From NCBI GenBank assembly GCA_017518225.1, contig JAFWVV010000056.1, positions 1-48,081 on the forward strand: a DNA stretch of 48,081 nt. The letters are read 5' to 3'. Under the pieces are notes generated by a model. It made no database searches. It was not told where the DNA came from and saw only the letters and a program-made list of their open reading frames with translations. Source of the stretch: Oscillospiraceae bacterium. GTDB taxonomy: Bacteria; Bacillota; Clostridia; Oscillospirales; Oscillospiraceae. Positions 2,955 through 11,241 of the stretch are shown piece after piece. The position numbers and the translations under genes are program-made. Positions within the stretch are counted from its first letter, which is position 1; every line of letters starts with the position of its first letter.

Positions 2955-3650
2955 ATGGTTGAAATGAAAGATGTGAAGGTGGTCTATCAAAGCAGCGATA
3001 CCGTTGCGCTCGATGGCATCAGCATGCGCATCGACGACGGGGAGTTTGTGTTTCTGGTAGGGCCCTCCGGCTCGGGCAAGAGCACGATCATGAAACTGAT
3101 TACCGGCGAAATTCGTGCAGACGCGGGAAAGATCACAATCAACGACTTCAACATGCGCAAGATCAAGCGCCGCAAGCTCCCGAAGGTGCGCCGAACATTG
3201 GGCGCGATCTTCCAGGACTATCGCCTGATCGAAAACATGAACGTCTATGACAACGTGGCCTTTGCCATGCGTGTGGTTGGCGCGCCGAACCGTGTGATTC
3301 GCAAGCGCGTGCCCTATGTGCTGGAACTGGTCGGACTGGATGGGCGGGAAAAGCGCATGCCCAATGAGTTGTCCGGCGGCGAGCAGCAGCGTGTGGCGAT
3401 TGCCCGCGCGCTCGTCAACAACCCCCGCATGATCATCGCGGACGAGCCGACCGGAAACCTTGACCCGGTGCGCAGCCTGGAGCTGATGCTCCTGTTTGAA
3501 AAAATCAACAAGGAAATGGGAACGACGATCATGGTCGTCACCCATGAAAAAGAACTGGTCAACGCCCTGGAAAAGCGTGTTATCACGATTGAAAACGGGC
3601 GCGTAGCCAGTGATGAAACGGATGTGTATTACGGTTATGAGCTTAAGTAG
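2955..3650 (+). CDS. ftsE: cell-division ABC ATPase FtsE
   Basis: FtsE is the ATPase of the FtsEX complex, which gates peptidoglycan hydrolases at the division site or side wall from the cytoplasmic face. The 231-residue protein has Walker A GPSGSGKST (about residue 36), the signature LSGGEQQRVAIARAL, Walker B MIIADEPTGNLD and the H-loop VVTHEKE, all intact. The length equals that of the family. The start has the ribosome binding site AGGAGGATAC. The reading frame overlaps ftsX by 14 bases, which implies translational coupling. The genes that follow encode M23 hydrolases, the expected partners. Confidence 0.95.
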   Translation: MVEMKDVKVVYQSSDTVALDGISMRIDDGEFVFLVGPSGSGKSTIMKLITGEIRADAGKITINDFNMRKIKRRKLPKVRRTLGAIFQDYRLIENMNVYDNVAFAMRVVGAPNRVIRKRVPYVLELVGLDGREKRMPNELSGGEQQRVAIARALVNNPRMIIADEPTGNLDPVRSLELMLLFEKINKEMGTTIMVVTHEKELVNALEKRVITIENGRVASDETDVYYGYELK

Positions 3651-4521
3651 AAGTGCTTATTTGATCCGCGAAGGTTTCCGCAGTATTTCCACCCACGGAT
3701 TTATGTCCTTCGCCTCGGTCACGATTATTATGGCCTGTCTGATTATTATGGGCAGCGTCTCCCTTTTGACCTTGAACATCGACGGGATGATCAAAAATCT
3801 GGAGGATCAGAACGAGGTCGTTGCCTTTGTGGATGAGGCTTATTCGGAAGAGGATGCGCGTGCGCTGGAAAACCGTCTGACGGCCATCGACAACATCAGC
3901 AACGTGCAGTTTGTCAGCCGCACGGACGCCATGAGCAACTTCATGGATAACTACTCTCGCGATCTGATGGTCGGCATTGACGAGACGGTCTTTCGCCACC
4001 GCTACGTGGTGCAGCTGACGGATATCGCGCTGATGGCGCAGACCAAGTCTGCGCTGGAGGCTGTGGAGGGCGTTGCGAAGGTCAACGCGCATCTGGACTA
4101 TGCGCGCATCTTTGTCACCATTCGCAACGTCGTTACGGTCGTTTCGCTGGTTTTGATCGTAATTTTGGTGTTTATCTCGATCTTTATTATGTCCAACACC
4201 ATCAAGCTTGCGACCTTTAACCGCAGGGAAGAGATCGCGATCATGAAAATGGTCGGCGCGACCAACAGCTTTATCCGACTGCCCTTTATCATCGAGGGCT
4301 TGGTTCTTGGTATCCTTGGCGGCGGTTTGGCCTTCCTGGCCGAGCTTGGACTGTATCAGCTCGTCACCGGCCGCGTGGTCACGTCTCTGACCGGAAGCTT
4401 TATCCGGGTCATCCCAATCACGCAGGTTGCGCTGCCAATGTTCATTGCCTTTATGGGCACCGGCATTCTGGTCGGCGTTTTCGGCGGTGTGAACGCGATT
4501 CGCAATTATCTGAAGGTATAA
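3637..4521 (+). CDS. ftsX: cell-division permease-like protein FtsX
   Basis: FtsX is the membrane partner of FtsE. The 294-residue protein shows the family topology: one transmembrane helix (about 22-46), an extracytoplasmic domain (about 47-163) that in other bacteria binds hydrolase coiled coils, and three further helices (about 165-187, 215-240, 262-284). The conserved cytoplasmic segment RREEIAIMKMVGAT is present. I chose the ATG at 3637, which overlaps the end of ftsE, because it gives the typical N-terminus; an upstream start at 3610 would add nine residues. Eighteen bases separate it from the next gene. Confidence 0.95.
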   Translation: MSLSRSAYLIREGFRSISTHGFMSFASVTIIMACLIIMGSVSLLTLNIDGMIKNLEDQNEVVAFVDEAYSEEDARALENRLTAIDNISNVQFVSRTDAMSNFMDNYSRDLMVGIDETVFRHRYVVQLTDIALMAQTKSALEAVEGVAKVNAHLDYARIFVTIRNVVTVVSLVLIVILVFISIFIMSNTIKLATFNRREEIAIMKMVGATNSFIRLPFIIEGLVLGILGGGLAFLAELGLYQLVTGRVVTSLTGSFIRVIPITQVALPMFIAFMGTGILVGVFGGVNAIRNYLKV

Positions 4522-4539: not shown

Positions 4540-6045
4540 ATGAACGCAAGAAAAGCGAAAAACTACATAGCGATTGCGCTGGTCTGCCTGTTGCTTTTGC
4601 CGCTGTGTTTGCGTGCGTTGATGCCGAAAGCCTATGCGGTCACGCAAAGCGATATCGACAAGATCCGGCAGGAGCGAGATCAGCTGACGCAGGAGCAGCA
4701 GGTAAGTCAGAAAAAAATCGAGCAGCTGAAGGAGCAAAAGGCCAGCGTTTTGGAGCAGAAGGAAGCGCTCGATGAACGCAATGCTCTGGCCAGAGAACAG
4801 CTGGCGCTGATCCACAGCCAGATTGAACTCTATGATCGTCTGATCGAGGAAAAGGAACAGGACGTTGCTGCGGCGAAGGAAAAGGAAGACTACCAACTGC
4901 AGCGTTATCGGGTTCGTGTGCGCGCTATGGAGGAAAACGGCGGCTATGACATGCTCAGTCTGCTGCTGTACGCTGACAGCTTTGCCGAACTGCTTGCGGT
5001 GACGGACGATATTCGTTTGATCATGGAGGCTGACCGCCGTCTGGAGGAGGCCTATGTCGCCGCCCGTGAGGAGCACGAAGCTGTTCAGGCTGATTATGAG
5101 GCGACCAAGAGCGAACTGGAAGACAGCCGCCTTGAGCTCAGCCGCGAGCAGAAGGAGCTGGAGAACATGATCCGGGAGGCGACGGATTTGATCGCCCTGC
5201 TGGATGAGGATATCGAAAAGGCGAAAAAGGAATACGAAGAGCTCGAGCGCGCCATGCAGGCGGCAGAATCCCAGATCGCCCAGTTGATTGCGGATCTCCA
5301 TCGCCAGCGTCAGGAAGAGGAACGCAGACGCCGCGAGGAGGAAGAACAGAGAAAGAAGCCGAAAGAGACCCCCGCCCCCGAGCAGACGGAGATCCCCGCC
5401 CCCGAGCAGACGGAGATCCCCGCCCCCGAGCAGACGGAGGCCCCGACCCCCGAAGCGACGGAGACTCCGGCCCTCGAAGAGACGGAGACCCCGGCGCCCG
5501 AGCAGACGGAGGCTCCGGCTCCCGAGCAGACGGAGGCCCCGGCTCCCGAAGAGACGGAGGCTCCGGCTCCCGAAGAGACGGAGGCCCCGATTCCCGAGGA
5601 AACGTCGCAACCCGTCGGTGTCGGCACGGGCAGTCTGATGTGGCCGGTTCCGAGCGGACACAACGTGACGAGTCCTTACGGCATGCGCATTCACCCAATC
5701 ACGGGCGAGGAAAAAATGCATACCGGCATTGATATCGACGGCTATGGCAATGAAGGCGGTGCGATCGTCGCCTGCGACAACGGCGTCGTGGTGACTGCCA
5801 CCTATGACAACGGTTACGGCAACTACATCATCATCGACCACGGAAACGGTATGCAGACCCTGTATGCGCACATGTCCGGCTTCGCGGTCAGTGCCGGCGG
5901 CACGGTGAGCAAGGGCGATACCATCGGCTATCTCGGCTCCACCGGCATTGCGACCGGAACTCACTGCCATCTGGAGGTTTTCGTGAACGGCGGACGGGTA
6001 GACCCGGCCGGATATTTTTCGGGAATCAATTACATTGATTGTTAA
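4540..6045 (+). CDS. secreted coiled-coil M23 peptidoglycan hydrolase with PAPEQTE repeats
   Basis: This 501-residue protein has a signal peptide (about 1-32, ending near PKAYAV), a long coiled coil (about 38-265) like PcsB/EnvC/CwlO-type FtsEX partners, ten octapeptide Pro/Glu/Thr-rich repeats (residues 278-357) and a C-terminal LytM/M23 domain. The zinc ligands look intact: His394 and Asp398 in HTGID, and His475/His477 in HCH, so it should cleave peptidoglycan cross-bridges or stems. It directly follows ftsX, which suggests that FtsEX activates it through the coiled coil. The Pro-rich linker is absent from the tandem paralogue downstream. Confidence 0.92.
   Translation: MNARKAKNYIAIALVCLLLLPLCLRALMPKAYAVTQSDIDKIRQERDQLTQEQQVSQKKIEQLKEQKASVLEQKEALDERNALAREQLALIHSQIELYDRLIEEKEQDVAAAKEKEDYQLQRYRVRVRAMEENGGYDMLSLLLYADSFAELLAVTDDIRLIMEADRRLEEAYVAAREEHEAVQADYEATKSELEDSRLELSREQKELENMIREATDLIALLDEDIEKAKKEYEELERAMQAAESQIAQLIADLHRQRQEEERRRREEEEQRKKPKETPAPEQTEIPAPEQTEIPAPEQTEAPTPEATETPALEETETPAPEQTEAPAPEQTEAPAPEETEAPAPEETEAPIPEETSQPVGVGTGSLMWPVPSGHNVTSPYGMRIHPITGEEKMHTGIDIDGYGNEGGAIVACDNGVVVTATYDNGYGNYIIIDHGNGMQTLYAHMSGFAVSAGGTVSKGDTIGYLGSTGIATGTHCHLEVFVNGGRVDPAGYFSGINYIDC
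5371..5610 (+). repeat. ten tandem 24-bp units coding PAPEQTE-type octapeptides
   Basis: Units begin every 24 bases from 5371. The first three are almost identical and the later ones diverge (PTPEATET, PALEETET, PAPEETEA, PIPEETSQ). All keep frame, so copy-number change would alter linker length without frameshift. Confidence 0.95.
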
Positions 6046-6056
6046 AGGATAACGGC

Positions 6057-7355
6057 ATGAATAAAAAGACACAATCCATTCTTGCGACCATCTTGGTTAT
6101 ACTGATGATCCTGAGCCTGCTGTTTGCATTAATTCCGAGCGTACATGCAGTCACGCAGGAGGAGATCGATCGGCTGAAGGAGAAGCGGGATGAGATCGCT
6201 GCAGAGAAAGCGAAAAAGCAGGCGGTCGTGGATGAACTGGAAGAAAAACGAGCCAGTGTTTTAGAACTCAAGCACGCGCTGGACGAGAGAAATCAATACA
6301 CGCGCCAGCAGATTGAACTGACCCTGGAGCAGATCGAGCTGTATAGCCAGATGATCCAGCAAAAGGCGGACGAGGTCGAAGTGGCTCGCGCGCTGGAGGA
6401 GCAGCAGCTCGAACGCTATCGCACACGTGTGCGCGCGATGGAGGAAAATGGAGACTTTGACTTTCTTGCGTTGCTGCTGAATACCACCGACCTCGGCGAG
6501 CTGCTGACCACGATCGATGACATTGGGGAGATCATGGAGAGCGACCGCCAGCTGGAGGACAATTACATTGCCGCGCGTGAAAACACGGAGCGCATCAAGG
6601 CCGAGTATGAGGCGGTCAAGGCTGACCTTGAGACCCGGCAGGGGGCGCTTTGGGAAGAAAAACTCGAACTGGATCGTCAGATCCAGGATGCGACGACGCG
6701 TATCAATGAACTGATTGAAGAAATTCAGCTTTGGCAAGAGCAAATCGACGAATTGGACGAGCAGCAGGAAGCACAGCAGGCGGAGATTGACGCCCTGGTT
6801 GCCGAGCTGGAGCGCGAACGCGCCGAAGCAGAAGAACGCCGCCGCCGCGAAGAGGAAGAGCGCCGCAGACAGCAGCAGCAGCAACAGCAGCAGGGCGGCG
6901 GACAAAGCGGTTCTTCCGGCACGACAGCCGGCAGCGGTTCTTTCGGCTGGCCCTGCCCGGGCTGGTATTACATAACCAGTAAGTTTGGCAACCGGCTTCA
7001 CCCGGTCTATCAGACCTGGAAATATCATTCTGGCATTGACATTGCGGCCAACAGCGGATCAGCGGTCGTTGCATCCGACAGCGGTACGGTCGTTTTTTGC
7101 GACTATAACGGCGGCGCCGGTAATATGATTACGATCGATCATGGAAACGGTTATTGCACACTCTATTTCCATTTGTCCGGATTTGCTGTTTCCAATGGTG
7201 ATGCCGTGAGCAAGGGACAGACGATCGGATATGTCGGCTCGACCGGCGTTTCGACCGGACCGCATCTGCATTTTGAGATCCGCTATAACGGGACCTGTAT
7301 TGATCCCGTTGAAACAGCAGGCTTCTCCGGCTTGAGTTATGCGGAGGATGCATAA
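6057..7355 (+). CDS. second secreted coiled-coil M23 peptidoglycan hydrolase
   Basis: A tandem paralogue of the preceding gene, 432 residues long: signal peptide (about 1-33, ending at SVHAV), a coiled coil (about 36-270) sharing the motif RYRTRVRAMEENG with its neighbour, a short Gln/Gly/Ser linker with an eight-Gln run, and an M23 domain. The zinc-site residues His324, Asp328, His403 and His405 (HSGID, HLH) are present, so it is predicted to be active. The ATG at 6057 follows AAAGGA and lies 11 bases after the stop of the upstream gene. Two hydrolases behind one FtsEX suggest divided roles, for example septal and lateral wall. Confidence 0.92.
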   Translation: MNKKTQSILATILVILMILSLLFALIPSVHAVTQEEIDRLKEKRDEIAAEKAKKQAVVDELEEKRASVLELKHALDERNQYTRQQIELTLEQIELYSQMIQQKADEVEVARALEEQQLERYRTRVRAMEENGDFDFLALLLNTTDLGELLTTIDDIGEIMESDRQLEDNYIAARENTERIKAEYEAVKADLETRQGALWEEKLELDRQIQDATTRINELIEEIQLWQEQIDELDEQQEAQQAEIDALVAELERERAEAEERRRREEEERRRQQQQQQQQGGGQSGSSGTTAGSGSFGWPCPGWYYITSKFGNRLHPVYQTWKYHSGIDIAANSGSAVVASDSGTVVFCDYNGGAGNMITIDHGNGYCTLYFHLSGFAVSNGDAVSKGQTIGYVGSTGVSTGPHLHFEIRYNGTCIDPVETAGFSGLSYAEDA

Positions 7356-7398
7356 AGGAAAAAACAGACAAAACACGATCAGTCCCATGGGGCTGACA

Positions 7399-7427
7399 GC
7401 CGGACAGCCCGTTTTGGGCTGCCCGGC
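7399..7427 (+). repeat. intergenic GC-rich hairpin
   Basis: GCCGG-A-CAGCCC (7399-7410) pairs with GGGCTG-C-CCGGC (7416-7427) around a GTTTT loop, with one mismatch. A smaller hairpin (TCAGTCCCATGGGGCTGA) lies just upstream. No U-tract follows, so it may be an RNA stabiliser or partial attenuator between the hydrolase and S41 genes. Confidence 0.55.
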
Positions 7428-7462
7428 TCTCGTGCTGAAAAGAATGAATTGGGGGTAAGATT

Positions 7463-8707
7463 ATGGGGAACCTGATCCGTCGTCTGCTGATGGGGCTTGG
7501 GCGTGTACTGCATGTGTTGTTTAGCCAAAAGCTTTCCCTGCGTGTCGTGGCAATTTTGCTGATCCTCGGCATTGGCTCCACATGGTGGCTGACGTCCAAC
7601 CAGTTGAAAAAATCTGTCGGCGGCGAAGCGGATTTCGACGAGGCGATGCGCTACGTCGAGATCAAGGACATCATCGAGTCAAACTTCATCAATGAGGTTG
7701 ACCGCGTGAAGCTCGGCGAATCGGCGGCTGCGGCGATGGTCAGCGGTCTGGGGGATCGATGGAGCAGCTATATGTCGGCTGACGAGTATAAGACTTTTCA
7801 GCTATCCAGCGCCAATGAGGTCTCCGGCGCGGGGATTTCGACCATCAAGCAGGGGGAGGGCTTTCAGGTGACCATGGTCAATCTGGACTCTCCGGCTGCG
7901 CGCGGCGGGCTGAACGCCGGCATGCTGATTACGGCGGTGGACGACATCGACGTGCGGAAAATGGATGCGGACGAATTTCGTACGATGATCCGCTCCCGCC
8001 TGAACGCCAAGTTTACGCTGACGGTGTCCGGACAGAAGGAGCCCTTGACGATCGACTGCTCCCGCGGCTATATCAACCCGGTTTCCTATACGATTGAGCG
8101 GACCGGCGCGGGCAATATCCGCGTGGAGAGCTTTGAAGCCGGCAGCGGCGAGGCGATGATTGACGCGTTTGAAGCCCTGCTGCATCAGAACGTCAACAAG
8201 TTTATCATCGATTTGAGAAACAATCCCGGCGGTCTGATTGACGAAATGAAGACGGCTCTGGATTATCTTCTGCCGCAGGGCGAACTGTTTGCACTTCGCG
8301 ACAAAAACGGCAAGGAAGAGATTTATCGTTCGGATAACAGTTCTCTGAAAACCGATATATGTATTCTTATCAACGAGCAAACCTTTGGCGAGGCGGAGAT
8401 TTTTGCTGCGGTGATGCAGGAACTGCGCTGGGCGACGATCATCGGTGAGCGCAGCGCAGGACGCACCCGCATTCAAGAGACGATTGAAATATCCGATGGC
8501 AGCGCGATCCGTCTGTCTACGCGCAGCTTTATGACGCCCAATCGTGTGGATATCTCACAAAACGGCGGTGTGGTGCCGGATATCATTGTCTATAATACTG
8601 TCAATGAAAATGAGGATATTGTAGAGGGGAACGGCATGGCCATCTACGCCTCCGACCCACAGCTTCGCACGGCGCTGGAGCGTTTGAGCAGCGGTTTTTC
8701 AAGTTGA
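7463..8707 (+). CDS. S41/Ctp-family protease homologue, predicted catalytically dead
   Basis: This 414-residue protein has an N-terminal membrane anchor (about 24-45), an N-terminal helical segment, a PDZ domain (about 115-195) and an S41 fold, the architecture of carboxy-terminal processing proteases. In active members the dyad is the middle Ser of SASASEI and, 25 residues later, the Lys of FGKG. Here those positions are Gly309 (QTFGEAEI) and Arg334 (SAGRTRI), and the auxiliary Asp is Glu320. Both key residues are therefore lost while the fold stays well conserved, which implies a scaffold or adaptor. Its position after ftsEX and two M23 hydrolases suggests it binds or regulates them. Confidence 0.88.
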   Translation: MGNLIRRLLMGLGRVLHVLFSQKLSLRVVAILLILGIGSTWWLTSNQLKKSVGGEADFDEAMRYVEIKDIIESNFINEVDRVKLGESAAAAMVSGLGDRWSSYMSADEYKTFQLSSANEVSGAGISTIKQGEGFQVTMVNLDSPAARGGLNAGMLITAVDDIDVRKMDADEFRTMIRSRLNAKFTLTVSGQKEPLTIDCSRGYINPVSYTIERTGAGNIRVESFEAGSGEAMIDAFEALLHQNVNKFIIDLRNNPGGLIDEMKTALDYLLPQGELFALRDKNGKEEIYRSDNSSLKTDICILINEQTFGEAEIFAAVMQELRWATIIGERSAGRTRIQETIEISDGSAIRLSTRSFMTPNRVDISQNGGVVPDIIVYNTVNENEDIVEGNGMAIYASDPQLRTALERLSSGFSS

Positions 8708-8732
8708 CAGGCGCTGCGGCGCAGGATATAAT
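8704..8732 (+). promoter_or_regulatory. consensus sigma-A promoter for greA-lysS
   Basis: TTGACA (8704-8709) and TATAAT (8727-8732) with a 17-base spacer match the consensus exactly. The -35 box contains the stop codon of the S41 gene. Confidence 0.9.
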
Positions 8733-8785: not shown

Positions 8786-9274
8786 ATGGCAACTGCAGGC
8801 AGATATAAAATGAGTCAGGAGCGTCTGGAGGAGCTCAAGCAGGAGCTTCATTATTTGGAGACGGTCCGTGAAAAGGAAGTCGCTGAACTGATCAAGGAGG
8901 CGCGCAGCTTCGGCGATCTGTCGGAAAACAGCGAATACGACGAGGCAAAAACCGAGCAGGGCAAGCTCTATTCCAAAATCGCAGAGATCAAGGATTTGAT
9001 CGACAATGCCGAAATTGTTGACAATATCGAACTTGACGCGCCGAAGGACACGGTCACGCTCGGCAGCATCGTGCGTGTGCGGGACTTGGGCGACGATTTT
9101 GAGGAGAGCTATGAGATTGTCGGCTCGCAGGAGGCCAATCCCAAGCTCCACCGTATTTCCGACGACTCGCCGCTTGGCCGTGGTCTGCACGGTCATCGCG
9201 CCGGAGAGATCGTCTCCGTGCTTACTCCGGCCGGAGAGCTGAAATTTGAAATCATTTCATTGGAAAACCGTTGA
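8786..9274 (+). CDS. greA: transcription elongation factor GreA
   Basis: GreA binds RNA polymerase through its secondary channel and stimulates cleavage of backtracked RNA. The 162-residue protein has the N-terminal coiled coil with the acidic tip [13 protein letters not shown] and the C-terminal FKBP-like domain ending [13 protein letters not shown]. The length is normal. The ATG at 8786 follows AAAGGAG; an earlier in-frame start at 8741 has no site and would overlap the leader. A consensus promoter precedes it, and lysS follows after 20 bases, a pairing often seen in Firmicutes. Confidence 0.96.
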
Positions 9275-9294
9275 GAGAGAAAAAGAGGATTAGC

Positions 9295-11241
9295 ATGAGT
9301 GAATCAAATAACCGACAGACAGAGAACGCGCAGGAGCTGTCTGAAATCCTGCAGATTCGCAGGGACAAGCTGAAGGCGCTGCAGCAGGAGGGGAAGGACC
9401 CCTTTGAAATTACCAAATATGAGATCAGCCATCACAGCAGCGAGGTGCTTGCGCAGTATGAGGCCCTGGAAGGACAGACGGTCTCCGTGGCTGGACGCAT
9501 GATGGTCAAGCGCGTGATGGGCAAGGCGTCCTTTGTCAAGCTTCTGGATCGTGAAGGACAAATTCAGTGCTATGTCGCCCGCGATTCCCTCGGGGAGGAG
9601 GCTTACGCCGCCTTTAAGAAAATGGATATTGGCGATATTCTCGGCGTGAAGGGCTACGTGTTCCAGACCAAGACCGGGGAGACCTCCATCCATGCGACGG
9701 AGATTACACTGCTCACAAAGTCGCTCAAGCCTCTTCCGGAGAAGTTTCACGGTTTGACCGACGTGGATACCCGTTACCGCCAGCGCTATGTGGATCTCAT
9801 CGCCAACCCCGAGGTGCGTGATACTTTCATCAAGCGATCCCGTATTATCAGAGAGATACGCCGTTTTCTGGACGATCGCGGCTTTATGGAGGTTGAGACC
9901 CCCATGCTCGTGTCCAACGCCGGCGGCGCTGCGGCGCGCCCCTTTGAGACGCACTTTAACGCGCTCGACGAGGACGTGCGCCTGCGGATTTCGCTGGAGC
10001 TCTATCTCAAGCGTCTGATCGTCGGCGGGCTGGAAAAGGTCTACGAGATCGGCAGAGTATTCCGCAACGAGGGCGTGGATACCCGGCACAATCCCGAGTT
10101 TACGCTGATGGAGCTGTATCAGGCCTATACCGATTACCACGGCATGATGGATCTGACCGAGGACATGTTCCGCCATCTGGCGCAGGTTGTATGCGGCACG
10201 ACGACGGTGAGCTATCAGGGAACGGAGATCGACCTCGGCAAGCCCTTTGAGCGGCTGACCATGAACGATGCGATCAAGAGATACAGCGGCGTGGACTTTG
10301 ACGCGGTCAAGACCGACGAAGAAGCCAAGGCGATCGCGCGTGAGCGCGGCGTCGCCTACGAGGAGCGCCACAAGCGCGGCGATATCATCAACCTTTTCTT
10401 CGAGCATTATTGTGAAGAAAAGCTGATCCAGCCGGTATTCATCATGGATCACCCCATCGAGATCAGCCCGTTGACCAAGCGCAAGCCCTCCGACCCCACA
10501 AAGGTCGAGCGCTTTGAGCTGTTTATCTACGGGCGCGAGATGTGCAATGCCTACAGCGAACTCAACGACCCCATTGACCAGCGCGAGCGCTTCAAGGCGC
10601 AGGAGGAGATGCTGGCCAAGGGCGACGAGGAAGCCAACACCACCGACGAGGACTTCCTCAATGCGCTGGAGATCGGCATGCCGCCCACGGGCGGCATCGG
10701 CTACGGCATCGACCGACTGGTCATGCTGCTGACCGACTCCGCCTCCATCCGCGACGTCCTGCTGTTTCCGACCCTGAAGAATCAGGGCGCGGCGAAGAAC
10801 GAGGCGAACAACGCCGCCCAGGCTGCGGCAAAGGAAGAGACGGCGACCGTTGAAGATATGCCGATCGATTTCTCCAAGGTCGAGATCGAACCGCTTTTTG
10901 CCGATTTTGTCGATTTTGAGACCTTCTCCAGGAGCGACTTCCGCGCGGTCAAGGTGCTGGCCTGCGAGGCTGTGAAAAAGTCCAAGAAGCTTTTGAAGTT
11001 TACGCTGGACGACGGCAGCGGCACGGAGCGCGTGATCCTCAGCGGCATCCACGAGTACTACGAGCCGGAAGAGCTCGTCGGCAAGACCTGCGTGGCGATC
11101 ACGAATCTGCCGCCGCGCCCGATGATGGGCATTGAGAGCTGCGGTATGCTGATCTCCGCCGTGCACCACGAGGACGGCGCGGAAAAGCTGCATCTGCTGA
11201 TGATCGATCCGCATATCCCGGCCGGCGCGAAGATGTATTGA
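9295..11241 (+). CDS. lysS: lysyl-tRNA synthetase (class II) with C-terminal tRNA-binding domain
   Basis: The first roughly 500 residues are a class II LysRS: an OB-fold anticodon-binding domain ([16 protein letters not shown]), motif 1 ([19 protein letters not shown]), motif 2 ([17 protein letters not shown]) and motif 3 ([14 protein letters not shown]). After an Ala/Glu-rich linker comes an extra domain of about 110 residues (about 540-648) that resembles the MetRS-C/Trbp111 tRNA-binding fold ([42 protein letters not shown]). That makes the protein about 150 residues longer than ordinary LysRS. The ATG at 9295 follows AGAGGAT. It is co-transcribed with greA. Confidence 0.95.

Follow-up and report, generated by a model that had tools for sequence, protein, structure and literature searches.

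A predicted S41 pseudoprotease of the CtpB kind encoded beside ftsEX and M23 hydrolase genes in Oscillospiraceae

Introduction

Why would a bacterium keep, next to its division and wall-cutting genes, a protease-like protein from which the cutting residues have gone? The question is raised by an open reading frame (ORF) at positions 7463-8707 (+) of a 48,081-nucleotide stretch from an Oscillospiraceae bacterium (GenBank assembly GCA_017518225.1, contig JAFWVV010000056.1), which we call the window. The ORF starts at ATG and encodes 414 amino acids. From the DNA letters alone, the original prediction had taken its product for a catalytically dead S41 protease encoded with ftsE, ftsX and two M23 hydrolase genes, and had proposed that it tethers or restrains these hydrolases as a PDZ scaffold. 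To our knowledge, the restraint of FtsEX-linked wall hydrolases in Clostridia has been little studied, and carboxy-terminal processing proteases (CTPs), the S41 group concerned, are known for cutting. A lineage in which the cutting residues are gone, apparently repeatedly and under selection, amounts to a natural separation-of-function test. In the portion of the open-access literature that was available, our searches turned up neither a published S41 pseudoprotease linked to ftsEX nor any S41 pseudoprotease beside EnvC or PcsB; inactive prokaryotic serine protease homologues have been counted, and S41 is absent from the accessible part of that text (PMC2605481).

An S41 fold without the Ser/Lys dyad

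The window protein has the domains and the predicted fold of an S41 family member. Peptidase_S41 (E = 1.9e-37), PDZ_6, PDZ and CtpB_N-like profiles all passed the Pfam cut-offs, and an AlphaFold model of the single chain reached a mean predicted local distance difference test (pLDDT) of 91.0 and a predicted template modelling (pTM) score of 0.84, in agreement with the expectation that the PDZ domain and overall fold are kept. The model includes a membrane-anchor helix (residues 26-51; 7538-7615, +), its hydrophobic stretch judged by eye, a PDZ domain (residues ~112-200; 7796-8062, +) delimited by matches to PDZ_6 at 136-188 and PDZ at 122-187 and by fold matches to the DegS and HtrA2 PDZ domains within 112-207, and an S41 core (residues ~207-378; 8081-8596, +; Pfam S41 at 217-376). 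The score against the NCBIfam model TIGR00225 (prc), 173.8 bits, lies below its cut-off of 218.6.

The likeness to Bacillus subtilis CtpB (PDB 4c2c to 4c2h) extends over the fold, the N-terminal helices, the PDZ domain, the cap and the core. By an alignment through the relative L044, residues 122-125 (7826-7837, +) correspond to the carboxylate-binding loop Gly113-Ala116 of CtpB, so judged present by sequence, and Arg177 (7991-7993, +) corresponds to Arg168, its PDZ-cap substrate sensor. Foldseek TM-scores were mostly 0.4-0.6 with a large root-mean-square deviation (r.m.s.d.), and VIA-align values were used for fold comparison. The model superposed on 4c2h and 4c2e with an r.m.s.d. of 3.1-3.3 Å over 263 positions and on 4c2c, the active state, with 11.7 Å over 341; because 4c2c fits only with this large deviation, the domain orientation differs from that of active CtpB. 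The closest PDB match by sequence is Pseudomonas aeruginosa CtpA (E = 4e-34). VIA-align also returned a fold match to IRBP (RBP3), a eukaryotic S41 homologue without protease activity that is built of tandem modules and binds retinoids; unlike the window gene, it has no link to cell-wall genes.

The residues that define a CTP enzyme, a Ser nucleophile and a Lys general base 25 residues apart, are replaced. Alignments to both CtpA and CtpB place Gly309 (codon GGC, 8387-8389, +) and Arg334 (CGC, 8462-8464, +) at the two dyad positions with the same spacing of 25 residues, as had been claimed. Gly309 aligns with the CtpA position at which 7rpq has Ser and the S302A mutant 7rqh has Ala, and Arg334 with the Lys of the CtpA FGKG motif; in CtpB, reached by chaining the alignment via L044 to chain 4c2c, the equivalents are Ser309 and Lys334, the identical numbering being a coincidence. 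Gln338 (CAA, 8474-8476, +), the third residue of the CtpB triad and one that the original prediction had omitted, is kept. According to the available excerpts, the CtpB triad consists of Ser309, Lys334 and Gln338, and Q338E abolishes activity (PMC3808539), and in vivo S302A and K327A abolish the activity of CtpA while Q331A has a minor effect (PMC11021448). Judged by its residues, the window protein is thus an S41/CTP protein by fold but not a CTP enzyme. The same Gly and Arg occur in all five genomes of the window's subclade, so an assembly error is unlikely.

A different Ser/Lys pair in the active site would have changed this picture, and the alignments were searched for one; none was found. 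The fixed core Ser residues of the genus, 290 and 352, are equally fixed in 55 dyad-bearing relatives from the family (selected for Ser and Lys, which makes 309 and 334 invariant among them by design). No newly fixed Lys, His or Cys appears in core residues 200-380 across the genus, the fixed Lys and Cys (68, 129 and 199) sitting in the N-terminal and PDZ parts. In the core, Thr214, Thr335 and Thr353 show complete or near-complete fixation across the genus and are conceivable as alternative catalytic residues. One element of the original prediction fell away: Glu320 had been taken for a lost auxiliary Asp, but Glu is the norm at this position (Glu in 53/55 and Asp in 2/55 of the dyad-bearing relatives; Glu in 81/90 and Asp in 9/90 genus members).

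Dyad loss across the genus, family and order

Dyad loss is a pattern of the genus, with scattered cases in the family and order, and not a peculiarity of one gene. The window protein matched 91 of the 102 genomes of its genus, and 90 orthologues could be read (G034, with two fragments at a contig end, was left out). At positions 309, 334 and 338 they carry SKQ in 3, SRQ in 3, GKQ in 15, GNQ in 11, GRQ in 6, GMQ in 2, AKQ in 9, ASQ in 9, AMQ in 3, RNQ in 23, RSQ in 5 and KNQ in 1. Ser is therefore gone from 84/90 and the dyad from 87/90; three keep Ser without Lys, three keep both, and Gln338 is present in 90/90. With nucleophile and general base both missing from the window protein and the dyad missing from nearly all its orthologues, the prediction that it is catalytically dead is strongly supported at the sequence level, and the label 'S41 peptidase' is mostly misleading in this genus.

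Outside the genus the dyad is the rule. In 58 family proteins that had not been picked by dyad, 55 were SKQ (Ser in 55, Lys in 56); as this sample was hand-chosen, mostly from high-ranking matches among 165 matched non-genus genomes, 3/58 is not an unbiased rate of loss. The three are G254 (Ala/Lys), whose three sampled congeners are all SKQ, and G143 (Asp/Ser) and G269 (Cys/Ser), which belong to one genus. Second copies in L090 and L110, both SKQ, stand outside this count. From other families of the order we read 21 S41 rows (20 genomes, 20 families): 16 are SKQ, two have Ser and Lys with Ile338, and three lack Ser, namely L180, L193 and the first of two tandem copies in L192, all of which adjoin ftsE-ftsX-M23. 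In the rest of the class, Ser and Lys are present in 62/62 rows (61 SKQ, 1 SKN), a sample of the 30 best matches and 32 chosen from the listed rest with many short stretches and FtsX in view in 23/62; eight paralogues from stretches without FtsX are all SKQ. Over these 91 rows from order, class and paralogues, Ser and Lys are both kept in 38/41 with FtsX in view and in 50/50 without. Contig data gave 14 further loci outside the genus, all SKQ, which may overlap the other samples; L034-L038, which probably repeat genus genomes, were excluded.

Departures at the third triad position and duplicated S41 domains were also seen. L184, L187 and L251 encode S41 proteins with Ser and Lys in which Gln338 is replaced by Ile, Ile and Asn, respectively. 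L110 encodes a double S41 protein (817-aa ORF, - strand) and L090 a tandem S41 pair (6298 and 7430, +), with the dyad in all four domains.

Apparently repeated inactivation on the tree

To count losses, a 108-row tree was built without columns 309, 310, 334 and 335. Dyad-bearing and dyad-less rows are interspersed on it. If the ancestor had the dyad and Ser and Lys were never regained, the uncollapsed tree demands 12 inactivations, a number that falls to 9 once branches below 80 are collapsed; we count 8 instead of 9 because rooting on G143 splits it from its sister G269. On that assumption there were at least eight inactivations in the family: six in the genus, one in g74 and one in g107. Those in the genus fall to G168/G315, the window's group of five, G366, G337 and, twice, a large clade in which some members keep Ser alone and others Lys alone. 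The three dyad-less cases from other families would add to this number, the trees covering family rows. A 53-row tree gives support of 100/100 to the pairs G004 (SK)/G366 (AM) and G035 (SK)/G337 (GK), and of 100/99 to a nine-row clade holding the window.

With equal weights, presence and absence of the dyad on the 108-row tree needs a minimum of 6 changes, and a return of Ser and Lys could have taken the place of repeated loss. Five of the six Ser codons in the genus are AGC or AGT, one step from the Gly codons GGC and GGT, and one is TCG. The three genus members with both Ser and Lys carry the genus-type Glu310, and their neighbouring letters are GKT, like their dyad-less kin; because of this match they may be inactive too.

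Selection and conservation

The prediction that the gene is not decaying is supported by substitution rates and by the conserved locus described below. We estimated ratios of nonsynonymous to synonymous substitution rates (dN/dS) by the Nei-Gojobori method with our own script for 22 hand-chosen pairs, some of which share a genome. In the 17 pairs where both genes are dyad-less the ratio is 0.023-0.158 (dS above or close to 1 in six of them); it is 0.196 and 0.088 in two dyad-bearing/dyad-less sister pairs, and of three dyad-bearing pairs two gave 0.051 and 0.168 and one was saturated. Catalytic residues have been lost while purifying selection acts on the remainder, which is what is expected of a pseudoprotease, and this status is, on sequence evidence, well supported.

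At the old active site itself the constraint has gone. Entropy at 309 and 334 lies at the 77th and 81st percentile (88 genus rows, without G168 and G315), and the positions at which the genus varies more than the 55 dyad-bearing relatives include 118, 122, 262 and 314. Asp250, Arg252, Gly256, Gly257, Glu312 and Gln338 are invariant in the genus. All 90 genus members have Arg177, as do 21/55 dyad-bearing relatives, and Ser115, at the place of CtpB Ser106 (a contact of Arg168), occurs in 74/90 and 15/55, respectively; PMC3808539 describes Arg168 as the sensor that couples ligand binding by the PDZ domain to the cap. Gly124 of the carboxylate-binding loop is present in 90/90, and the window protein has both Gly122 and Gly124. 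Because the genus is shallower than the set of relatives such contrasts are only suggestive, but the pattern would fit a protein in which chemistry was abandoned and the binding switch retained.

The ftsEX-M23 locus

The neighbouring genes are those that had been named. Pfam confirms ftsE (2955-3650, +; ABC_tran, with conserved gene order), ftsX (3610-4521, +; FtsX_ECD and FtsX, the true start probably lying downstream of the listed GTG) and two M23 hydrolases, both with the zinc-ligand pattern: M23a (4540-6045, +), in which a helical N-terminal part and a Pro/Glu/Thr linker precede the M23 domain, and M23b (6057-7355, +), with a helical N-terminal part and an M23 domain. FtsE, an FtsX with extracellular domain and M23 genes thus stand together, resembling FtsEX systems with EnvC or PcsB/M23 partners. 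Two hits in the window cluster stay below cut-off: CC_PcsB matches weakly (E = 4e-4), and an EnvC model covers almost the whole of M23b (E = 5e-16).

The order recurs: a PucR-like regulator, ftsE, ftsX, one or two M23 genes, the S41 gene, greA and lysS. FtsX lies upstream on the same strand in 107/148 stretches; the other 41 are mostly short M23-S41-greA-lysS pieces, with two that run FtsE-PucR-S41 without a recognised FtsX. The same arrangement is seen throughout the family and in the 18 of 21 order-level rows that have FtsX in view. Among genus rows with FtsX in view, 48/57 have two M23 genes, 8/57 one and 1/57 three; among the other such rows 40/50 have one, 3/50 two and 7/50 none, with a pattern that can miss genes. 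Duplication of M23 was considered as the cause of dyad loss and is not supported, G168, G315 and G254 being dyad-less with one M23 gene and G327 having the dyad with two.

The C-terminal tails of the M23 proteins (5998-6042 in M23a and 7308-7352 in M23b, +) were compared. Many first proteins of the genus end in -Y(Y/W)NC, with a C-terminal Cys, many second ones in -DAG(E/V), and several single M23 proteins of other genera in -DA. From their sequences, these tails are possible docking tails for the PDZ domain.

A possible binding role and its alternatives

What, then, might the protein do? Its retention by nearly all sampled close relatives, beside division and wall-cutting genes, suggests a useful job other than cutting, and cleavage is unlikely to be the job of the dead forms. 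We think the chances are about even that it is a CtpB-type pseudoprotease maintained by selection, which serves the FtsEX/M23 machinery as a PDZ scaffold or holds it in check. The protein would be membrane-anchored and presumably outward-facing, with the N-terminal helices, protease cap, PDZ domain and core of CtpB retained and cleavage impossible for lack of a nucleophile and general base. Its PDZ domain and tunnel would most likely still bind a protein tail or segment, and switching between open and closed forms would most likely be retained. By binding without cutting it could hold in place or restrain the M23 hydrolases that are encoded in its own cluster and driven by FtsEX; FtsX or these hydrolases would be its putative partners, and a dimeric form is presumed. 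The scaffold that the original prediction envisaged is plausible in this light, fitting the common locus, the retained PDZ motif and sensor residue, and the precedent of CtpA. CtpA with LbcA acts on the M23 hydrolases MepM and PA4404, degrading M23 hydrolases, and MepM co-purified with the inactive S302A form of CtpA (PMC6050968). CtpA is thus a CTP acting on M23 wall hydrolases but, unlike the window protein, a live protease. A broader version is possible but tentative: throughout this order, the main function of the CTP at the ftsEX locus may be a PDZ/cap switch on M23 hydrolases that never needed proteolysis, with catalysis an extra that was lost many times independently (at least eight losses in the family, provided that the dyad never returned, and dyad-less copies in three further families) and the binding switch kept. 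Such a role would add CTPs to the bacterial families with regulatory pseudoenzymes. The pseudoproteases CspC and CspA of Clostridioides difficile belong to the subtilisin family. They have a known role in Clostridia (PMC12880746) and, unlike the window protein, serve germination signalling.

Several observations weigh against a role on the FtsEX/M23 machinery. Three genus members keep both Ser and Lys, and dyad state does not follow M23 number in the four genomes named above. Because dyad-bearing homologues share the same locus, the locus gives no specific role to the dead form, and B. subtilis CtpB serves sporulation signalling (PMC3808539, in excerpt). Residue 122 is not Gly in 56/90 genus members and is Gly in 55/55 dyad-bearing relatives, so tail binding may have changed too. 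The shallowness of the genus raises conservation, which makes the invariance of Arg177 weak evidence for a switch, and both binding and lack of activity are what we infer from sequence.

The shared locus would equally suit a selected pseudoprotease that binds some other envelope protein, its position being inherited from a dyad-bearing ancestor, and the window genome has SpoIVB and Spo0A, so that other envelope signalling pathways are present. We consider this unlikely, although it deserves weight, given the preservation of the locus order over family and order and the presence of wall hydrolases among known CTP clients elsewhere. A decoy or mixed-dimer subunit, pairing with or competing against an active CTP, strikes us as improbable. 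It has a suggestive instance in genome G045, whose ftsEX locus holds a dyad-less S41 gene and then one with the dyad (L192, ~5953-8316), and the available excerpts describe CtpB as a dimeric ring (PMC3808539) and the activation of one protomer per dimer in the CtpA-LbcA complex (PMC11021448). With L044 as query the window genome returned two matches. However, the window protein itself gave one match in this genome (86% complete), whose two other Pfam S41 proteins match the CTP profile weakly (E = 8e-13 and 2e-6), and 89 of the 91 matched genus genomes have a single place, the exceptions being G317 with a second weak one and G034 with its two fragments.

The remaining alternatives turn on the active site. 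A protease with altered chemistry in the same pocket, for example through Glu310, Thr335, Arg336 and Gln338, could draw on the near fixation of the first three beside the old dyad (each 84/88 genus rows; Gln338 88/88), on fixed Thr214 and Thr353, and on intact Asp250, Arg252, Gly256 and Gly257. We rate it as quite improbable, as residue 309 takes G, A, R, S and K and residue 334 K, N, S, R and M (13 and 10 parsimony steps, where the median column in the genus takes 8), which is unlike a selected catalytic pair, and as the core has gained no fixed Lys, His or Cys. That the gene is a decaying relic without function is barely credible: constraint has been lost at the active site, but the low dN/dS of the dyad-less pairs, a trimmed length of 405-427 residues in all 90 rows except G003 (contig end) and G332, and presence in 33 of the 34 genus genomes with completeness of 90% or more and contamination of 5% or less all speak against it.

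Further features of the locus

The S41 gene lies 107 bases downstream of M23b. Its end is overlapped by a 12/12 match to TTGACA-17-TATAAT at 8704-8732, ahead of greA-lysS, which by its sequence suggests a separate promoter for greA-lysS, with the S41 gene as the last of the ftsEX-M23 unit; as 5 promoter-like sites were found against 3.8 in shuffles, the match to the consensus falls short of proof. A strong hairpin at 7391-7436 (-30 kcal/mol, z = -3.5, no T run after it), in the gap that separates M23b from the S41 gene, is possibly an mRNA processing or attenuation element.

Loss of sporulation was considered as the cause of dyad loss and is not required, the dyad-less window genome having SpoIVB and Spo0A. 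Spo0A was found in 77/102 genus genomes, many of them incomplete, and dyad-less rows occur both with and without it. In some genus subclades, such as G009/G317/G328/G344, no Spo0A was found, which may reflect repeated loss of sporulation or incomplete genomes. Finally, the lysyl-tRNA synthetase encoded at 9271-11241 carries a C-terminal MetG-type tRNA-binding domain (residues ~540-656).
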